From Methanothermococcus thermolithotrophicus DSM 2095 (GTDB lineage Archaea > AGJL01 > Methanococci > Methanococcales > Methanococcaceae): a stretch of 64,000 nucleotides of DNA. Made by a program: the position numbers and the translations under genes. Positions 11,817 to 19,752 of this stretch are shown here, one piece after another. Under the pieces are notes generated by a model. The model searched no databases, was not told where the DNA came from, and saw only the letters and a list, made by a program, of their open reading frames with translations. Where the stretch lies: NCBI RefSeq assembly GCF_946463545.1, contig NZ_OX296583.1, positions 124,001-188,000 on the forward strand, read 5' to 3'. The stretch's first letter is position 1; the number at the start of each line of letters is the position of its first letter.

Positions 11817-12320
11817 TTTTTTACTTTCGCTTACGAAGTAAGCGACTTAAAACCTTCGATTTTAAGTTTTCTCACTCCGTTCAAAATGCAGTGAAATCGA
11901 AATCTCCGATTTCGAGCTACAAAACTCTTCGAGTTTTGTTCAAACCGAAGATTTTCGTCTAATTTTAACTTTTTTGATTTTAATTTTATAATATGATATC
12001 GAAACATTTATATATCCATTTAATAAATTTAATGAATGCTCTGAACTGATTTTATTACAGTATATCGGAAGTTTATATCCGATAAGTGAAGTAAAACAAG
12101 GAAATGATTGGCACGGCACAATAATTAACGTATTAGGGGTACCAGCGTAGTTCAAAATACCAGGGGGTCGCAAAATACTGCATAAAGAGAACAACAATTA
12201 AAAATGAAATAGTTCAGACTATTTAATATTATTAGGGGTGAGATCTGAAACAGATATGTATATGCACATATGATGTACAGGGGGCTATAACACAGCATAT
12301 GGGTGTAAGTGGTGAGGGAG
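11817..12320. repeat. Intergenic region: hairpin mosaic, then possible decayed coding sequence
   Basis: The left part (11827-11955) is dense with stems: TCGCTTAC-GAA-GTAAGCGA at 11827-11845, an imperfect CTTAAAA stem at 11846-11866, CGAAATC-TCC-GATTTCG at 11898-11914, then GAGCTAC and a 9-bp stem ACAAAACTC-TTC-GAGTTTTGT at 11919-11939, followed by GTTCAAACC. The right part (about 11990-12320) has no intact gene. One forward frame is open for about 52 codons and ends YPISEVKQGNDWHGTI, then INVLGVPA and a stop. A TATA-like TTTATATA lies near 12009-12016, so it may instead be promoter and leader for the surface operon. Confidence 0.6.
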
Positions 12321-12782
12321 ATGATTAAAAATACTGTTTTGATTTGTTTATTGATTGGGGTGATGTTAGCTGGATGTGTAGGGGTAAAGAAAGATGAACC
12401 ATTACCTACACAAACAATTTCCGCCCCAATACAGCCTTATACTGGTTATTTACACTCTGGTGAGAGTATAACCTTCACATATTGGCAACAAAATATTACA
12501 ATGACCTATCAATCCAGCCATCCAAAACATACCATAAAAGTTATTGTAAACGGGAAAGAACAGGCATTCGTAAAGGAAAGAAATGACAAAGAAGTAATAT
12601 ATTATGGTGTAAGTGTGGATTCAGTATCGGGACTACCATTTAAGAACCCTGAACTTCGTTTTGTAATTGAGCCTGTGAGATGGACTGAAAAATATGGAAA
12701 AACAGTTCCTATATATGGCGGGAACTGGAATGTTAGTGAAATATATTTTGAAGTTTTTATGAGAGGGATAACATATGAATAG
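12321..12782 (+). CDS. Predicted secreted lipoprotein of unknown function
   Basis: A 153-residue exported protein: from ATG 12321 (SD GGTGAGGG) the N-terminus is MIKNTVLICLLIGVMLAGCV with lipobox LAGC, so it is probably lipid-anchored on the outer face of the membrane. A GTG at 12309 would add four residues but overlaps the SD. The mature part is beta-rich with many Thr/Tyr/Ser residues and no recognised domain. It overlaps the start of the M6 protease gene by 8 bases, implying co-translation and perhaps a role as partner, anchor or inhibitor of that protease; this role is inference. Confidence 0.75.
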   Translation: MIKNTVLICLLIGVMLAGCVGVKKDEPLPTQTISAPIQPYTGYLHSGESITFTYWQQNITMTYQSSHPKHTIKVIVNGKEQAFVKERNDKEVIYYGVSVDSVSGLPFKNPELRFVIEPVRWTEKYGKTVPIYGGNWNVSEIYFEVFMRGITYE

Positions 12783-15663
12783 AAATAAATTATTGATTGC
12801 TCTACTGACTATTACGGCATTACTAACTGCTACTCAAATGGTTAGTGCTGTCCCAGCAGAACCTAGAACTCATAACTTAACTCAGCCAGATGGATCAATA
12901 ATTCAAGCAAAATTAGTAGGTGATGAACGGTTCTATGTATGGGAAACTACAAATGGTTACACCATTCTTAAAAATAAAGACGGTTATTGGGCATATGCTA
13001 TTAAGAAAGATGGTAAATTAGTTCCAAGTTCATATGTTGTTGGTAAATCCAATATGAACAAATATGGTGCAAAAGAGTACGACATATCTCAAAACTCATA
13101 TGATCTTACTAGACTAAATATTCAAAAACATCTACGCCCAGATAAAGATGTTATTGAACAAAATACATTTAAATCTCTTTCTTCATCAATAAGCACTCAA
13201 ACAAATTATCCATTAAAGTCATCAGCACAATTAACACCGTCATTAATAAATGGAACACAAAAAGCCATAGTAATTTTAATAGAATTCCAGGATGTAAAAC
13301 ATAATCCTAATAATACTCCAGCATATTATGAAAACATGTTATTTAATAAGAGTAATAACCTTAGTATGAATAGATATTATAATGAAGTTTCCTACGGTAA
13401 AGTAGATGTAGTTGGAAACGTGACTTATGTCTGGGTTACAAGTCAATATAATATGTCCTATTACTGGGATGATTATTATTGGTACATAGATGCCAAAAAT
13501 GGTCCAATATATGAGCTCGCTAGAGAAGCTGTTCAGTTAGCAGACCCATATATTAATTTCTCGCAATACGATACAGACGGGGACACTATTGTAGATCACC
13601 TTATAATAATCCATGCAGGATATGGACAAGAATTCAGTGGTAATAGTAGCGATATATGGTCACATAGATGGGTAATCCCTAATTGTACAACAGACGATGG
13701 AGTTTCAGCGTATGGATACACTATGCAATCTGAATATTCTCCAATGGGTACCTTTGCCCATGAATTTGGTCATGATCTCGGATTACCTGATTTATATGAT
13801 AAAGATGGTAGTTCTTCAGGTATTGGAAAATGGGGATTAATGGGCGCAGGTAGTTGGTTGGGTAATCCATCCGGAACTTACCCAGCACATTTATGTGCAT
13901 GGTCCAAGTATTTACTTGGATGGGTATCACCTATCTCAATAAATGGAACACAACACATTGAAATACCAGCGGTAGAATTGAACGACACTGTGTATATGTT
14001 GCTGGATAATCCATTTGGCCCTACTGATTGGGATATGTTTGGCAATGGAGTTGGCGAATACTTTTTAATAGAAAATAGACAAAAAATTGGATTTGATTCG
14101 TATCTTCCAGGTGAAGGGTTATTAATTTGGCATGTTGATGAGAGTGAACCAGGTAATTATAATGAAACCCATTATTTAGTAGACTTGGAAGAGGCTGATG
14201 GATATCAGGAATTGGAAAATGGATACGACAGGGGAAGCAGCACTGACCCTTGGTATTCAAACTTAACAGGATTTACCGATGTATCGAATCCAAATTCAAA
14301 TTTATACGATGGAACGAATAGTGGTGTCCGCGTAACTAATATAAGTGATTCAAGTGTAACAATGACTGCTGATTTAACGGTTTCATCCAATATTACAAAC
14401 ACATCCACGGGTCCTACCTATATAAACATGCTACCTTACGTGATTGACACATCAGGATACTATATATTGAACATAAGTAGCACAGGTATAAACAGTACTG
14501 CCATAACAATAACCGCTAATGATGTTGTACTAGACGGAAATGGACATGTTTTAGAAGGAATGGGGATTAACACCTCGTCCATATACTGGGAGTATCAGGA
14601 GGGTTACCTGGGTTATTCAGGAATCGATATTAGATATTGTAAAAACGTAACTATTAAGAATTTGGCGGTAATGAATTGGAGTGTAGGAATTGATTTTTAT
14701 GGTGTGGATAATAGCAAAATAGAAAATATAACTGTAAGCTCAAATGATTGTGGAATATCCCTCTGGGGTTCAAACAATAATACGCTAAGAAATAATACGA
14801 TGAACAATAATACTTACAATTTCATGTCGTGGAGTTGGGAAGGATATAACGATATAGATACATCAAATACCGTAGATGGAAAACCAATATACTACTTGGT
14901 AAATAAATCAAATCTTACCATAGATTCTTCAAGTAATGCTGGAACGGTTTATTTGATAGATTGTAAAAACATAACTGTTAAGGATCTGCATTTAGCGCAT
15001 AATGGATTTGGATTAAAGCTTTTAAGAACAAATGATTCAAAAATAGAAAATATAACTGTAAGCTCAAATGATTGGGGAATATTCCTTGACTGGAACTCAA
15101 ATAATAATATATTAACAAACATAACTGTAAGCTCAAATGATTGTGGAATATCCCTCTGGGGTTCAAACAATAATACGCTAAGAAATAATACGATGAACAA
15201 TAATACTTACAATTTCATGTCGTGGAGTTGGGAAGGATATAACGATATAGATACATCAAATACCGTAGATGGAAAACCAATATACTACTTGGTAAATAAA
15301 TCAAATCTTACCATAGATTCTTCAAGTAATGCTGGAACGGTTTATTTGATAGATTGTAAAAACATAACTGTTAAGGATCTGCATTTAGCGCATAATGGAT
15401 TTGGATTAAAGCTTTTAAGAACAAATGATTCAAAAATAGAAAATATAACTGTAAGCTCAAATGATTGTGGAATATCCCTCTGGGGTTCAAACAATAATAT
15501 ATTAACAAACATAACTGTAAGCTCAAACGATTACTGTGGGATACTCCTTGACTGGAACTCAAACAATAATATATTAACAAATAGCAATATAACGAATAAT
15601 TGGCATGGTTTGTACATTGGATGGGATTCAAATAATAACACAATTATTTCAATAACTTCTTGA
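12775..15663 (+). CDS. Secreted M6 (immune inhibitor A-like) metalloprotease with beta-helix domain; N-terminal part of a split protein
   Basis: A 962-residue exported protein: signal peptide at about 1-25 (ending MVSA), an M6 propeptide-like start (NLTQPDGSIIQAKLVGDE), then the catalytic domain with zinc motif HEFGHDLGLPDLYD at residues 329-342, GLMGAGSW and LLIWHVDE, all M6 hallmarks. From about residue 520 a NosD/right-handed beta-helix region follows, with NIT-V-SSND and SNNN-L-NN repeats. Residues from 652 contain a 131-residue-period duplication. The frame stops at TGA 15661, exactly where the beta-helix should continue; the missing continuation is in the next frame. The protein is thus probably truncated by a frameshift, or was one ~2000-residue chain. 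Confidence 0.85.
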   Translation: MNRNKLLIALLTITALLTATQMVSAVPAEPRTHNLTQPDGSIIQAKLVGDERFYVWETTNGYTILKNKDGYWAYAIKKDGKLVPSSYVVGKSNMNKYGAKEYDISQNSYDLTRLNIQKHLRPDKDVIEQNTFKSLSSSISTQTNYPLKSSAQLTPSLINGTQKAIVILIEFQDVKHNPNNTPAYYENMLFNKSNNLSMNRYYNEVSYGKVDVVGNVTYVWVTSQYNMSYYWDDYYWYIDAKNGPIYELAREAVQLADPYINFSQYDTDGDTIVDHLIIIHAGYGQEFSGNSSDIWSHRWVIPNCTTDDGVSAYGYTMQSEYSPMGTFAHEFGHDLGLPDLYDKDGSSSGIGKWGLMGAGSWLGNPSGTYPAHLCAWSKYLLGWVSPISINGTQHIEIPAVELNDTVYMLLDNPFGPTDWDMFGNGVGEYFLIENRQKIGFDSYLPGEGLLIWHVDESEPGNYNETHYLVDLEEADGYQELENGYDRGSSTDPWYSNLTGFTDVSNPNSNLYDGTNSGVRVTNISDSSVTMTADLTVSSNITNTSTGPTYINMLPYVIDTSGYYILNISSTGINSTAITITANDVVLDGNGHVLEGMGINTSSIYWEYQEGYLGYSGIDIRYCKNVTIKNLAVMNWSVGIDFYGVDNSKIENITVSSNDCGISLWGSNNNTLRNNTMNNNTYNFMSWSWEGYNDIDTSNTVDGKPIYYLVNKSNLTIDSSSNAGTVYLIDCKNITVKDLHLAHNGFGLKLLRTNDSKIENITVSSNDWGIFLDWNSNNNILTNITVSSNDCGISLWGSNNNTLRNNTMNNNTYNFMSWSWEGYNDIDTSNTVDGKPIYYLVNKSNLTIDSSSNAGTVYLIDCKNITVKDLHLAHNGFGLKLLRTNDSKIENITVSSNDCGISLWGSNNNILTNITVSSNDYCGILLDWNSNNNILTNSNITNNWHGLYIGWDSNNNTIISITS
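14728..15467 (+). repeat. Near-tandem 347-bp direct duplication within the beta-helix coding region
   Basis: Bases 14728-15074 and 15121-15467 appear identical over 347 bases (offset 393, a multiple of three, so the frame is kept). The unit encodes beta-helix coils, including CGISLWGSNNNTLRNN and YYLVNKSNLTIDSSS. Synonymous identity across the whole length points to a very recent duplication or gene conversion. Further shorter NITVSSND coils follow before the frameshift. Such units could expand or contract by recombination and change stalk length. Confidence 0.9.
15639..15662 (+). other. Frameshift junction splitting the surface protein
   Basis: The upstream frame ends ...SNNNTIISITS-stop at 15661. 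The downstream frame is open from 15639 (stop at 15636-15638) and reads HNYFNNFLNNSAN, the expected NosD-type beta-helix continuation, which runs on to GTDNDGDGIGDAPY. A single -1 shift (or one lost base) inside this window restores one chain, for example NNNTI joined to YFNNF. The only start codon available to the second frame is TTG at 15660, without an SD. No homopolymer run or classical slippery heptamer is present. Confidence 0.8.
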
Positions 15664-18600
15664 ACAATTCAGCGAATATATATGCAAACTATTATTCAAT
15701 AAATAGATTTTACTCACTGGATATGGTTAATTACACCTATGCTGGAAAATATTTCACAAACTACTTAGGAAACTACTATTCAGATTACAATGGAACAGAT
15801 AATGATGGAGATGGAATTGGGGACGCACCTTACAACATTTCAAACAACTATTATTATTTAATAAATAATCATATAACCAAAGACACAATACCGCCATATA
15901 TTGAAAATAAATTTAATGCATATGGGTATACAAAACATATATTATCGAATGCTTCAAACTCAATAGTTGAGTATCCAATAGACAACTATCCGTTAATTAT
16001 GCCGGTAGAGAATTATACGATCGGAAATATTGTCGAAACTACAAATACAACAAATCAACACATCGACTTGTTAGGAAACCTAACTTATAGAATTATAAAC
16101 GAAACAGAAAATATAACGACCTTTGAAATAACATTAATAGTAATAAATGATGGAAACTCGACTAGTAACGAGTTTAATACAACGATTTATGTAAACAATA
16201 ACTCAATAAAAACCGAAAGATTATCATTAAACGCAGGAGAATCAAAAGAAATTAAAATCAACTATACAACAAATTTAACAAATAATATTGAAATAAAAGC
16301 AATCATTGATACAAATAAAGAAGTTGATGAAGTTGATGAAAATAATAACATTATCATAAAAACCATAACATTCCCAGATGTTGGAATTACATGGGCATAC
16401 ATGCCAACAGCAGTAAAAATAAATGAAACCAAAGATTTAAGATTTGATTTAAGAAAAGATGGCTATGGAACTGTTGAAGCAAACTTAACAGTAAAATTAG
16501 ACGATAAAATAATACACAATGAGAAAATAACATTTAATGAATGGTATCACGATTATAGATACCGAGAACTACCAATAACATTTAACGAATCTGGAGCTCA
16601 TAACATTACAATAACCATAACTCCAATAGGGACAAAAGACAGAAATATGGCAGATAACACAAAAACTATAAGTGTTACAGTAAAAGAGGCAAAGGCAGAT
16701 ATTGAAAAAGTTTATGGATTACCATACAACAATATATTAAAGGCGGATGGAGAGTACTGGATAGATGTTCGCTACAATGTCTCAGTTCCAAGTTACTATA
16801 CAATTAAAATAAACACGACAAAAGGTATCCAAATAATTGGGGATTCTGAAAAAACAAGATACACTTGGAGACATGGATGGACATACTTCAAAATAAAAGC
16901 AGTGGATATTTCAAACAATGAAAGTATATCAATAGAGATATTTGACCATAACAACAAATTATTGGCAAATGAAACACTGACTGGTATAAAAATAACTGAC
17001 CATCCAGTTGAAATTAAATATTCAAACATAACTTACACAAATTCATCAGCGAATTTAACATTTAGAGTATTCAATACAACAGAATACGATATCGATAGGC
17101 ATGTTGAATATGTGGTAATGATTGGGGAACAAGGAAGGGTTTTAAAAGGAATTGAATATCTTACAGGATATCCACACGGATGTATTGAGCAAACAACATC
17201 ACCAATGGTTGCATCCATCTATGTTAAAAAATACTGTGATCAAAACAACATTTCAACAACCATTGACTTTGGTTCTAATGTAAATAATGGAATTGAGAGA
17301 TTAACAACCGGAACCAATAAACCAGAAGTAATCTCAAGTTATGAATACGCATGGGGACTTTGGGGAGCATCATATCCAAATCCAATCCATACAGGTTACG
17401 TGTTATATGGATTAACCACTGCAAAAATGAATGGTTATGATGTAAATATGACCCATATTGAAAATGGAGCCAGATATTTGGTAAATTCACAAAATGATGA
17501 TGGAAGCTGGAACACTGGTTGGACATACTATATGAGAGATGAATATTCAAGCAATGCATTAATAACAATAAGTTTGGCACAAACATACAACATAACAACC
17601 AATGAAACCCTAAAACAAGAAATATTCAATGCAACAAACAAATCAGTAAGATACTTAATCAGTCAAACTGTCTATGAAAACAACATCTACGACTTAGGAT
17701 TCAAAGCATGGGCATTATCAGAAGCATACAATATGGGAATTAACGATTCAGAAGTTAAAGAAGCATTAAACGAAACAATCATTGCGATAGGTAACTGGAA
17801 AAATGAACATAAGAATGATGAAGCCATCTCATTATTCAGAGGAACTTCAAGCTACAGCGTCTATGGTGTTGCATCAGAAAGTATTGCAGTAGCTTCAATT
17901 GGATGTCAAAAAGCAAATGGCATTATAAACAACAGTGAATATGGAACACTAAACAGCATGCTAATAAACATATACAGTAGATATGGAGGTTCAGGTTGGG
18001 GTTCAACAAAATCCACTGGCTTAGCATTAAGGGCATTAACTGAATCAGGAACTGCAACAAACACCAACAATATCCAAATAACGGTAAAAGTTGATGGAAA
18101 CGAAATAAATACAATAACTGTAAATGCAACAAATCCAAAATTCGTAGGAAAATACTACAACAACACACTCTTAACAAGCGGGAAACATGAAATAGCATTT
18201 GAATTTAGTGGAAGTTCCAAGATATTATGTGGAGCTCTAGTATCACAAACAACACCATATTCAATAGCAATAAAGAGTGATGGTAAGGATTATATCGACC
18301 CATTGGCAGAAGACTTTAACCTAACAATAACAACAACGAAAGCCATTGTTGGTAGGGAATTTAATGCAACATTTACCATAACTAACAAAGCTACTGAGCC
18401 TATTGAAGTAGGAATTATAAAAGTAAAATTACCAAAAGGAATGAATTACACAAACATGACAAAATACATGAATGAATCATATAGTATTAGCTTCAACTCA
18501 ACAACAAATGAAACAACACTATACATCTATCCTGAAATAGTAAAGGCATCAAGCAGTTTATCAATAACAATTCCATTAAATGTAACAGAAGAAAATGCGA

Positions 18601-18767
18601 ACGATATTGAAGCTGTATTCTACCCAATGTATAATGAAGAAACAATAGCTCCAGCAAAAGCAACAACAACCGTAATCCCAATAAGAAAAATGAATGTAGC
18701 ACTTCCAACAGGATGGGTAATGGATGTTGAAGAAAAAGAAGATAAAACAATAATAACCATTAAATAA
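15660..18767 (+). CDS. C-terminal part of the split surface protein: beta-helix end, CARDB-like domain, alpha-2-macroglobulin-type thioester domain
   Basis: A 1035-codon frame lacking a signal peptide and good ribosome site. In order: end of the beta-helix (about 1-120, with the NosD closing motif GTDNDGDGIGDAPY); a CARDB-like Ig domain (about 125-240, DTNKEVDEVDENNN); another beta domain; then about 480-870 an alpha/alpha-toroid resembling the thioester domain of alpha-2-macroglobulin/complement, with GCIEQTTSP at C508/Q511 and, later, GSGWGSTKSTGLALRAL. A final beta-sandwich like DUF11-type domains ends at a plain charged tail without membrane anchor. Cys-X-X-Gln thioesters bind surfaces or trap proteases covalently. 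Function here is inferred. Confidence 0.82.
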   Translation: MNNSANIYANYYSINRFYSLDMVNYTYAGKYFTNYLGNYYSDYNGTDNDGDGIGDAPYNISNNYYYLINNHITKDTIPPYIENKFNAYGYTKHILSNASNSIVEYPIDNYPLIMPVENYTIGNIVETTNTTNQHIDLLGNLTYRIINETENITTFEITLIVINDGNSTSNEFNTTIYVNNNSIKTERLSLNAGESKEIKINYTTNLTNNIEIKAIIDTNKEVDEVDENNNIIIKTITFPDVGITWAYMPTAVKINETKDLRFDLRKDGYGTVEANLTVKLDDKIIHNEKITFNEWYHDYRYRELPITFNESGAHNITITITPIGTKDRNMADNTKTISVTVKEAKADIEKVYGLPYNNILKADGEYWIDVRYNVSVPSYYTIKINTTKGIQIIGDSEKTRYTWRHGWTYFKIKAVDISNNESISIEIFDHNNKLLANETLTGIKITDHPVEIKYSNITYTNSSANLTFRVFNTTEYDIDRHVEYVVMIGEQGRVLKGIEYLTGYPHGCIEQTTSPMVASIYVKKYCDQNNISTTIDFGSNVNNGIERLTTGTNKPEVISSYEYAWGLWGASYPNPIHTGYVLYGLTTAKMNGYDVNMTHIENGARYLVNSQNDDGSWNTGWTYYMRDEYSSNALITISLAQTYNITTNETLKQEIFNATNKSVRYLISQTVYENNIYDLGFKAWALSEAYNMGINDSEVKEALNETIIAIGNWKNEHKNDEAISLFRGTSSYSVYGVASESIAVASIGCQKANGIINNSEYGTLNSMLINIYSRYGGSGWGSTKSTGLALRALTESGTATNTNNIQITVKVDGNEINTITVNATNPKFVGKYYNNTLLTSGKHEIAFEFSGSSKILCGALVSQTTPYSIAIKSDGKDYIDPLAEDFNLTITTTKAIVGREFNATFTITNKATEPIEVGIIKVKLPKGMNYTNMTKYMNESYSISFNSTTNETTLYIYPEIVKASSSLSITIPLNVTEENANDIEAVFYPMYNEETIAPAKATTTVIPIRKMNVALPTGWVMDVEEKEDKTIITIK
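17178..17192 (+). other. Predicted internal thioester motif GCIEQ
   Basis: Codons GGA TGT ATT GAG CAA encode Gly-Cys-Ile-Glu-Gln, matching the GC(G/L/I)EQ thioester of alpha-2-macroglobulins and complement C3/C4; bacterial versions commonly read GCLEQTTS, and here it is GCIEQTTSP. The Cys side chain and the Gln three residues later would form the bond. The motif is embedded in the right fold context, as GWGSTKSTGLALRAL occurs about 270 residues on. Confidence 0.78.
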
Positions 18768-18801
18768 ATATTTTCTTTTTTTAAATTTTGAGGTGAAATT
18801 A

Positions 18802-19752
18802 ATGAAGTATATTATATTGGGAATGATGCTTTTATTATTGATTCCAGTGGTTGTAGGGGAGGTTAGAGAGATACCTCAAGGGAATGTTGAAATAAATATA
18901 ATCCAATATAATGTATCGTTCAACTACACGCTTGAAGAAAATAAAAACCTAACAATATTGGAACTAAACACTTCAAAAGAAAGTGATATTGTAGCATATT
19001 TTGATAATGAGCCATTATTTTCATATGAAGTTTCTAATGATTCATCAACAAAGACGTATAACACCCATTTATTAAATGGAACAATTGTAATAGCGGGAGT
19101 TAATGCATCAAATTATAATAAAATTGAAGGAACCGCAAATTGTACTTTTATAGGATGGAATAAAACACTTGGATATGCATTTTTCTTATTTGATAATATC
19201 GGAGAATCAAAATCAGGAATTATTAAGTTAAAATATGAAGAACCACAAGCACCAACAAACGACAACACACCTCCAACTGGTTTTTCAGGTGGTGGGGGTG
19301 GAGGAGGTGCTGCTCCAGAGACCCCAACCTACGAGGGGGTATCAGAAGAGATAAAATCCATTAAGATAAAAGAATTCGTATTTAACGCAAAAATGATAGC
19401 AGGAAACAATATCGATGGAAATTTCTCAAAAGGACTCAAAAACGCAACAGAATTAGTAAATAAATCACTTGACATAAAAGAAGACTGCATCTTAGTTGGA
19501 GGACCTGTGGCAAACCCGCTGGTTAAAAAATACGCATGGACCTTTAAAGTAAAAGTAACCAATGACTATCCAGGAGCTCACAAAGGAGTGATACAAAAAC
19601 AGATTATTAATGGGCATACTGTAGTACTCCTAGCAGGTTCTGACAGATGGGGGACAAAGGCAGCAGTTGAATACTTCAAAACTTTAGATGATATTCCAGA
19701 CGAACCTATAATCGTAGAATGGAAGGATGGAAAACCTGTTAAAATAGAATAA
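18802..19752 (+). CDS. Secreted S-layer-like protein with glycine-rich linker
   Basis: About 316 residues with a clear signal peptide (MKYIILGMMLLLLIPVVVGE) from ATG 18802, preceded by GAGGTGA; a GTG at 18793 is inside that SD. An N-terminal beta-rich domain (about 25-150, several NxT/S sequons) is joined by a GFSGGGGGGGAAP linker to a C-terminal domain of about 140 residues with ILVGGPVANPLV and TVVLLAGSDRWGTKAA, resembling the C-terminal domain of archaeal S-layer and related envelope proteins. No C-terminal membrane anchor is visible. It follows the thioester protein by 34 bases and is probably co-transcribed, so a cell-surface partnership is plausible. Confidence 0.75.
   Translation: MKYIILGMMLLLLIPVVVGEVREIPQGNVEINIIQYNVSFNYTLEENKNLTILELNTSKESDIVAYFDNEPLFSYEVSNDSSTKTYNTHLLNGTIVIAGVNASNYNKIEGTANCTFIGWNKTLGYAFFLFDNIGESKSGIIKLKYEEPQAPTNDNTPPTGFSGGGGGGGAAPETPTYEGVSEEIKSIKIKEFVFNAKMIAGNNIDGNFSKGLKNATELVNKSLDIKEDCILVGGPVANPLVKKYAWTFKVKVTNDYPGAHKGVIQKQIINGHTVVLLAGSDRWGTKAAVEYFKTLDDIPDEPIIVEWKDGKPVKIE

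Follow-up and report, generated by a model that had tools for sequence, protein, structure and literature searches.

Recurrent linkage of unrelated proteases to a bait-less thioester domain in archaea

We analyzed a 64,000-nucleotide stretch of the genome of Methanothermococcus thermolithotrophicus DSM 2095 (contig NZ_OX296583.1, positions 124,001 to 188,000, hereafter the window). In it, two overlapping open reading frames, ORF1 and ORF2, encode an M6 metalloprotease and a thioester domain (TED) of the type found in alpha-2-macroglobulin (A2M) and complement C3. Covalent thioester proteins have so far been known chiefly as components of animal immunity and as bacterial protease inhibitors. 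We found that the linkage between a protease and a TED recurs in archaea and is well supported. Three unrelated protease families were linked to the TED: M6 in the window, C25 in a genome of a sister genus (G006), and S8, which was fused to the TED in a more distant archaeon (G826) and encoded by a neighboring gene in other genomes. M6 together with a TED has so far been seen in this genome alone. The protease-TED pairing suggests an uncharacterized system at the archaeal surface, which may seize its targets covalently and cut them and could provide a natural means of combining covalent capture with proteolysis. A clade of archaeal TEDs without a recognizable bait region, whose members carry or adjoin a protease of their own from one of three catalytic classes, points to another way of working, and whether archaea use extracellular defence or antagonism can now be tested directly.

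Domains and predicted structure of the two reading frames

As judged from its sequence, ORF1 encodes a secreted M6 metalloprotease followed by a beta-helix. The M6 domain scored 210.9 bits against TIGR03296 (curated cut-off 110.8) and 107.6 bits against PF05547 (cut-off 22, E 9.6e-31), and its closest solved relative was InhA (4yu5, E 2.8e-21). The HExxHxxGxxD zinc site was present as HEFGHDLGLPD (ORF1 residues 329-339) and aligned with the matching region of InhA. In ORF2, the TED_complement model was matched at 60.1 bits (cut-off 22) in the Pfam scan. The combination of M6, beta-helix, CARDB and TED, which a first-pass annotation had read from the sequence by eye, was thus borne out by profile search of both frames, with E-values far beyond chance.

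The same Pfam scan found no match in ORF1 or ORF2 to the PF07703 bait region, MG2, MG3 or the A2M domain. In ORF2 no anaphylatoxin or C345C domain was matched, nor, up to E 1, was the thioester-domain model of the internal-thioester adhesins of Gram-positive bacteria. Pfam matched neither dockerin nor cohesin in the window proteins, the C-terminus of the TED protein showed no obvious transmembrane segment, and a tblastn search of plasmid sequences returned no match to ORF2. A promoter and terminator scan of the region gave no excess over shuffled sequences, the models being bacterial and unsuited to archaea.

We modelled the C-terminal 598 residues of ORF2 with AlphaFold. The mean predicted local distance difference test score (pLDDT) was 81, with the TED blocks mostly at 87-98, and in the predicted model the toroid lies inside the CUB domain and is followed by MG8. 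In a Foldseek search the model matched native A2M, A2ML1, C3, C5, CD109 and TEP1 over ~600 columns, the best match being 7s63 (E 7.7e-22). The root-mean-square deviation (rmsd) was ~6-9 to native forms and ~32 to C3b-type structures. When the upstream Ig domains were added to give a 918-residue model, the top matches were all alpha-macroglobulin or complement proteins (E down to 1.7e-31, rmsd ~18), and the Ig domains also aligned to A2M chains at that rmsd. Because earlier alignments contained A2M control rows, the search against solved structures was repeated with a profile built only from bait-less TEDs, which matched the TEDs of C5, C3, C4 and TEP1 at about 1e-10 to 1e-14. In a profile alignment with CD109 inspected by eye, the loop that carries the catalytic His of C3-type proteins, ~100 residues after the Cys, was short. 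The TED-like toroid that had been proposed from the letters was therefore recovered by structure prediction, and fold and motif together support the ORF2 module as a predicted thioester domain. The expected thioester residues, Cys508 and Gln511, were invariant in all four family homologues and conserved in 26 of 26 further archaeal loci.

Protease linkage across archaea and exchange between genera

The CARDB-TED module was found in 4 of 36 genomes of the phylum. At the same locus in G006 (hisC to cobQ), a single unsplit frame encodes a 2728-residue protein with C25 instead of M6, consisting of Propeptide_C25, Peptidase_C25 (E 2e-42), beta-helix, CARDB and TED. G010 carries CARDB-TED with a different N-terminus, and G009 has a PKD/CARDB/TED/dockerin protein adjoining a cohesin gene. 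The M6 part had no relative among 40 related genomes. Its nearest relatives among 394 genomes came from other archaeal families, and no TED was recognized in the four nearest M6 proteins, three of which were scanned over their full length.

To place the TED more broadly, we used the bait-less TED profile, which found matches in 30 of 395 relatives of G332. All 26 further archaeal TED loci carried GC[PV]EQ. An S8 subtilase gene lay directly upstream of the TED gene on the same strand, often 0-30 nt away, in 21 of these 26 loci. Most of the loci belong to related genomes and cannot be counted as independent, so the number measures conservation and not separate events. S8 was near the TED gene in two further loci (L100, L102) and was not seen in the remaining three (L101, L103, L109). 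The S8 motifs DTG, HGTH and GTSM were present in most loci, and the few incomplete cases still had the Ser motif. In G826, S8 and TED were joined in a single 2668-residue chain (S8 E 1.6e-44, TED E 7e-12). The TED gene was usually followed by genes for a ~250-residue protein (p250) with a predicted C-terminal membrane anchor and for a large protein that often bears a cohesin-like domain; p250 had no meaningful Pfam match and resembled cohesin weakly (43% probability). Dockerins were found on both the S8 and the TED proteins in many loci, and dockerin or cohesin was present in G009, G332 and G242. The only two dockerin proteins found in G332 were the neighboring S8 and TED proteins.

No bait region, MG2, MG3 or A2M domain was matched in the proteins of the window, G006, G009, G010, G242, G332, L107 and L108, whereas bait region, MG2 and A2M were matched in control archaeal A2Ms. 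The controls with bait regions, only five in number (L046, L047, L049, L050 and L052), had no S8 alongside. Phylogenetic analysis of 37 TEDs placed the bait-less archaeal TEDs (support 99/97) apart from the bait-region A2Ms (99/97), with long branches that leave the details unsure. What had been taken for an M6-containing oddity of one protein is therefore better described, as far as sequence comparison goes, as a predicted bait-less archaeal clade of TEDs in which the protease class is interchangeable among M6, C25 and S8.

The comparison with G006 also revealed recent exchange between genera. The DNA of the two loci was 84-95% identical from ~16200 (CARDB start) to ~19200 (end of the adaptor N-domain), with one 79% block just to the left. 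Downstream, identity was 65-75% in the S-layer domain and ~70-80% in cobQ. The synonymous divergence (dS) was 0.29 in the module and 0.55 in the adaptor, and was saturated in hisC and cobQ. This tract of high identity amid diverged flanks shows that the TED cassette and the adaptor N-domain, without the S-layer anchor, were recently exchanged between genera. The CARDB-TED cassettes of the window and G006 were 87% identical and serve M6 in one and C25 in the other. The interval from hisC to the beta-helix had no match between the two, and the lipoprotein and the protease differed; these look like another exchangeable unit. The tract includes the adaptor N-domain and not the S-layer domain, which suggests joint action of the N-domain and the TED protein, and the adaptor anchor may be suited to the S-layer of its own host.

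The adaptor gene was kept beside the TED gene in L011 and L013. Its S-layer anchor was 83% identical to that of a cohesin platform of the same genome and 76% identical to that of the G006 adaptor. The first-pass annotation had named a flanking lipoprotein and an S-layer-like protein, and both proved real (lipobox LAGC; S_layer_C match in the adaptor, E 2e-12). The lipoprotein had no similarity to the one at the same position in the C25 version (L011:2202-2666), which ruled the two out as homologues.

Table 1 Features of the protease-TED locus, in window coordinates.
Feature	Position	Strand	Basis or remark
Small lipoprotein gene, 157 aa, lipobox LAGC	12309..12782	+	overlaps ORF1 start by 8 nt
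ORF1: signal peptide, pro-region, M6 metalloprotease, beta-helix	12775..15663	+	962 aa; signal peptide and pro-region by eye
M6 metalloprotease domain in ORF1	13270..14133	+	TIGR03296, full model length, E 3.4e-62
Zinc-site motif HEFGHDLGLPDLYD, ORF1 residues 329-342	13759..13800	+	sequence
Right-handed parallel beta-helix of ORF1	14392..15660	+	NosD/para_beta_helix repeats, E 6e-23 and 3e-21
300-bp duplication within beta-helix	14708..15400	+	copies 14708-15007 and 15101-15400, 98% identical
Overlap holding the frame change from ORF1 to ORF2	15639..15663	+	25 nt, single frame change
ORF2 open frame: beta-helix end, CARDB/Ig domains, CUB-TED-MG8	15639..18767	+	first TTG at 15660
CARDB domain, ORF2 residues 147-231	16098..16352	+	Pfam, E 5e-11
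Recently exchanged tract: CARDB to MG8 plus adaptor N-domain, ending before the S-layer domain	16200..19200	+	DNA identity to G006
A2M/C3-type C-terminal module, CUB-TED-CUB-MG8	16971..18764	+	modelled, mean pLDDT 81
TED (PF07678), alpha/alpha toroid, ORF2 residues 493-795	17136..18044	+	E 2.5e-16
Thioester motif GCIEQ, ORF2 residues 507-511 (Cys508, Gln511)	17178..17192	+	sequence
GWGSTKSTG, ORF2 residues 779-787, conserved W-G-S-T-x-x-T segment of TED	17994..18020	+	sequence
Adaptor gene: secreted N-terminal domain, Gly-rich linker, S-layer outer domain	18793..19752	+	
Adaptor Gly-rich linker	~19284-19315	+	
Adaptor S-layer outer domain (PF05124)	19477-19674	+	

Several further observations were made at related loci. 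Repeat number is likely to vary at the near-identical 300-bp copies in the ORF1 beta-helix. In another part of this genome, G000:C1:1215425-1218775 (L063:2426-5776, minus strand) encodes an 1117-residue protein that combines cohesin-like repeats with CARDB-like domains and an S_layer_C anchor; it is adjoined by a protein with dockerin-like sequence (L063:5848-7206), and the two make up a second platform for surface display. In G009, cohesin-CARDB and S_layer_C parts are divided between two adjacent ORFs (L012:3239-6108), possibly another split gene, and correspond to a single-frame paralogue in the genome of the window. An M6 protease of G351 (L062:6091-8799) is followed by sequence that by eye is beta-helix-like and dockerin-like, without a TED, so M6 and beta-helix may be transferred together. 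An RtcB-like protein (L061:1891-4860) encoded beside an M6 protease gene of G238 has an apparent intein-like insertion, seen by eye. In G040 (L010:2-3021), an S8 subtilase lies beside a 617-residue toroid-like protein that lacks GCxEQ, and the two may be degenerate relatives of the pair. A TED protein of G817 (L136:8914-14520) reads YPYWCVEQ, with Trp replacing Gly before the Cys, and an S8-dockerin protein lies near it on the same strand (L136:16266-18497). One TED frame (L093, G709:C136:2200-3222) has an internal TAG.

Proposed mechanism and alternatives

Our preferred reading is capture and cleavage at the cell surface, in which the thioester captures targets covalently and a co-tethered protease cuts them. 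From its N-terminus, the protein would consist of the M6 zymogen, a beta-helix stalk that bears it, CARDB/Ig spacers and CUB-TED-MG8, the last of which would represent the C-terminal half of an alpha-macroglobulin or C3. An internal thioester is expected between Cys508 and Gln511, with MG8 shielding it. The adaptor encoded by the next gene would probably hold the C-terminal part of the TED protein at the S-layer via its S-layer domain. Contact, strain or cleavage would expose the thioester for acylation of an amine or hydroxyl on a foreign protein, particle or cell. The protease would then cut the captured target. The M6 and C25 versions each have a different co-encoded lipoprotein, which may serve in self-protection or as an assembly partner. 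We hold this reading tentatively, at somewhat under an even chance.

The main rival is self-activation in the manner of a convertase, in which the linked protease cuts upstream of CUB-TED and frees the TED for attachment, making the protease a trigger. Proteolysis is the classical way of activating TED proteins of this fold, as established for A2M and for C3, the latter activated by a partner protease. Having the protease and the TED in one polypeptide or on shared dockerins would be ideal for cutting in cis or between neighbors, and a trigger is plausible given that the TED-only model is nearer to native than to C3b-type structures. However, no bait-region or anaphylatoxin domain was detected, and near-identical CARDB-TED cassettes occur with both M6 and C25, so that no co-adapted cleavage site is evident. 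The latter is a mild argument, and it favors a protease acting on captured targets over a site-specific cut in its own TED. We consider self-activation rather unlikely on balance. Covalent self-anchoring appears improbable. Here the thioester would bind the S-layer, glycans or neighbor cells of the producer and the protease would be displayed cargo, an attachment of the kind known from thioester adhesins. The adjoining S-layer-domain protein, the C-terminus without a noticed transmembrane segment and the dockerin/cohesin anchoring of other members are consistent with it, but dockerin members with neighboring cohesins need no covalent anchor and yet GCxEQ is kept in every one of the 26 loci. 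An A2M-type inhibitor that traps foreign proteases is suggested by the homology of TED and MG8 to A2M. The first-pass annotation had listed protease binding among the possible functions; in the trapping sense it is very improbable, because bait region, MG2 and MG3, like the A2M domain, were unmatched in the members scanned while the control archaeal A2Ms did match, and an active protease of its own is not expected on an inhibitor.

A further alternative is that the two ORFs are a broken gene or an assembly or sequencing error, with no working product in this genome. This is suggested by the single frame change within the overlap, by the near-identical 300-bp repeats just upstream of it and by the start of ORF2, where no signal peptide was recognizable. 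A programmed frameshift was considered, and no slippery heptamer was recognized by eye in the overlap. ORF2 is otherwise intact over 3.1 kb, and its ratio of nonsynonymous to synonymous substitution (dN/dS) against the G006 homologue is ~0.25, so the frame change would be either very recent or an assembly error. We regard a broken gene or error as unlikely, and it would leave the domain combination real because unsplit relatives with other proteases exist. The claim of a single protein stood in part: where relatives join protease and TED in one chain, with C25 in G006 (L011) and with S8 in G826 (L135), the frame is unsplit and the two parts are not always separate genes, but in this genome the halves lie in different frames and no unsplit M6-TED homologue was found among the relatives searched.

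Several points weigh against capture and cleavage. The different frames of the M6 and TED halves are one, and the frame change may inactivate the gene in this genome. Capture, thioester chemistry, surface localization and the target are predicted from sequence and model. Exchangeable proteases are also compatible with TED activation of low specificity. No protease was recognized in the stretches examined around the TED proteins of G009, G010 and G242, and the 26 loci are not independent, as noted above. Docking of the TED protein by the adaptor is suggested by synteny and co-transfer; no cohesin could be detected in the adaptor N-domain, which also did not match p250, the protein at the same position elsewhere.

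More speculatively, the bait-less TEDs and their exchangeable proteases could constitute a widespread archaeal surface effector system with complement-like logic. The thioester would tag foreign cells, vesicles or virus particles covalently for attack by the co-displayed protease, and protease-lipoprotein and TED-adaptor cassettes would be swapped by recombination. We think it doubtful that this wider proposal holds in full.

Comparison with known systems

The window module shares CUB-TED-CUB-MG8 and GCxEQ with human A2M, A2ML1 and E. coli ECAM. Unlike in these A2Ms, bait region and MG2/MG3 were unmatched in the window family, and a protease is fused or next door instead. Complement C3 and C4 and insect TEP1 use the TED for covalent attachment, and the packing of the window model is predicted to be native-like; in contrast to them, no anaphylatoxin or C345C match was found, and the chain or gene cluster that carries the TED also supplies the protease, in place of a separate zymogen cascade. 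To our knowledge, Immune inhibitor A does not carry a TED. Its M6 catalytic domain and zinc motif (4yu5) are common to the window protein, whose C-terminal half is of TED type. The gingipain family C25 has the catalytic domain and C25 propeptide seen in G006, where beta-helix, CARDB and TED are added. The VARTIG arCOG07710 Ig proteins, which have a hypervariable C-terminus, are without a TED by their published description, whereas the window protein has one.

Dockerins and cohesins such as those on the widespread S8 and TED proteins are known from archaeal cohesin-dockerin assemblies (ANME, PMC9012536), a report in which thioester and macroglobulin are unmentioned. The window version differs from these assemblies in being without a dockerin and having an S-layer-domain neighbor instead. 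According to a 2021 study (PMC8416519), archaeal A2M homologues with TED and CxEQ comprise 27 proteins from 24 genomes, are secreted and have varied architectures, and endoproteases were remarked in some neighborhoods of archaeal TED genes. The TED with CxEQ, secretion and archaeal origin are common to those proteins and the window protein, and overlap of individual proteins with that set is possible. The text of that study names no M6, C25 or S8 fusion, conserved S8-TED gene pair, subtilase or dockerin/cohesin link. The first-pass annotation was aware of no description of the domain combination, and our text searches of the open-access literature likewise found none for M6, C25 or S8 with a thioester protein. 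Archaeal TED proteins are thus already known, and their systematic pairing with proteases brings known domains together in what appears to be a new recurrent combination.
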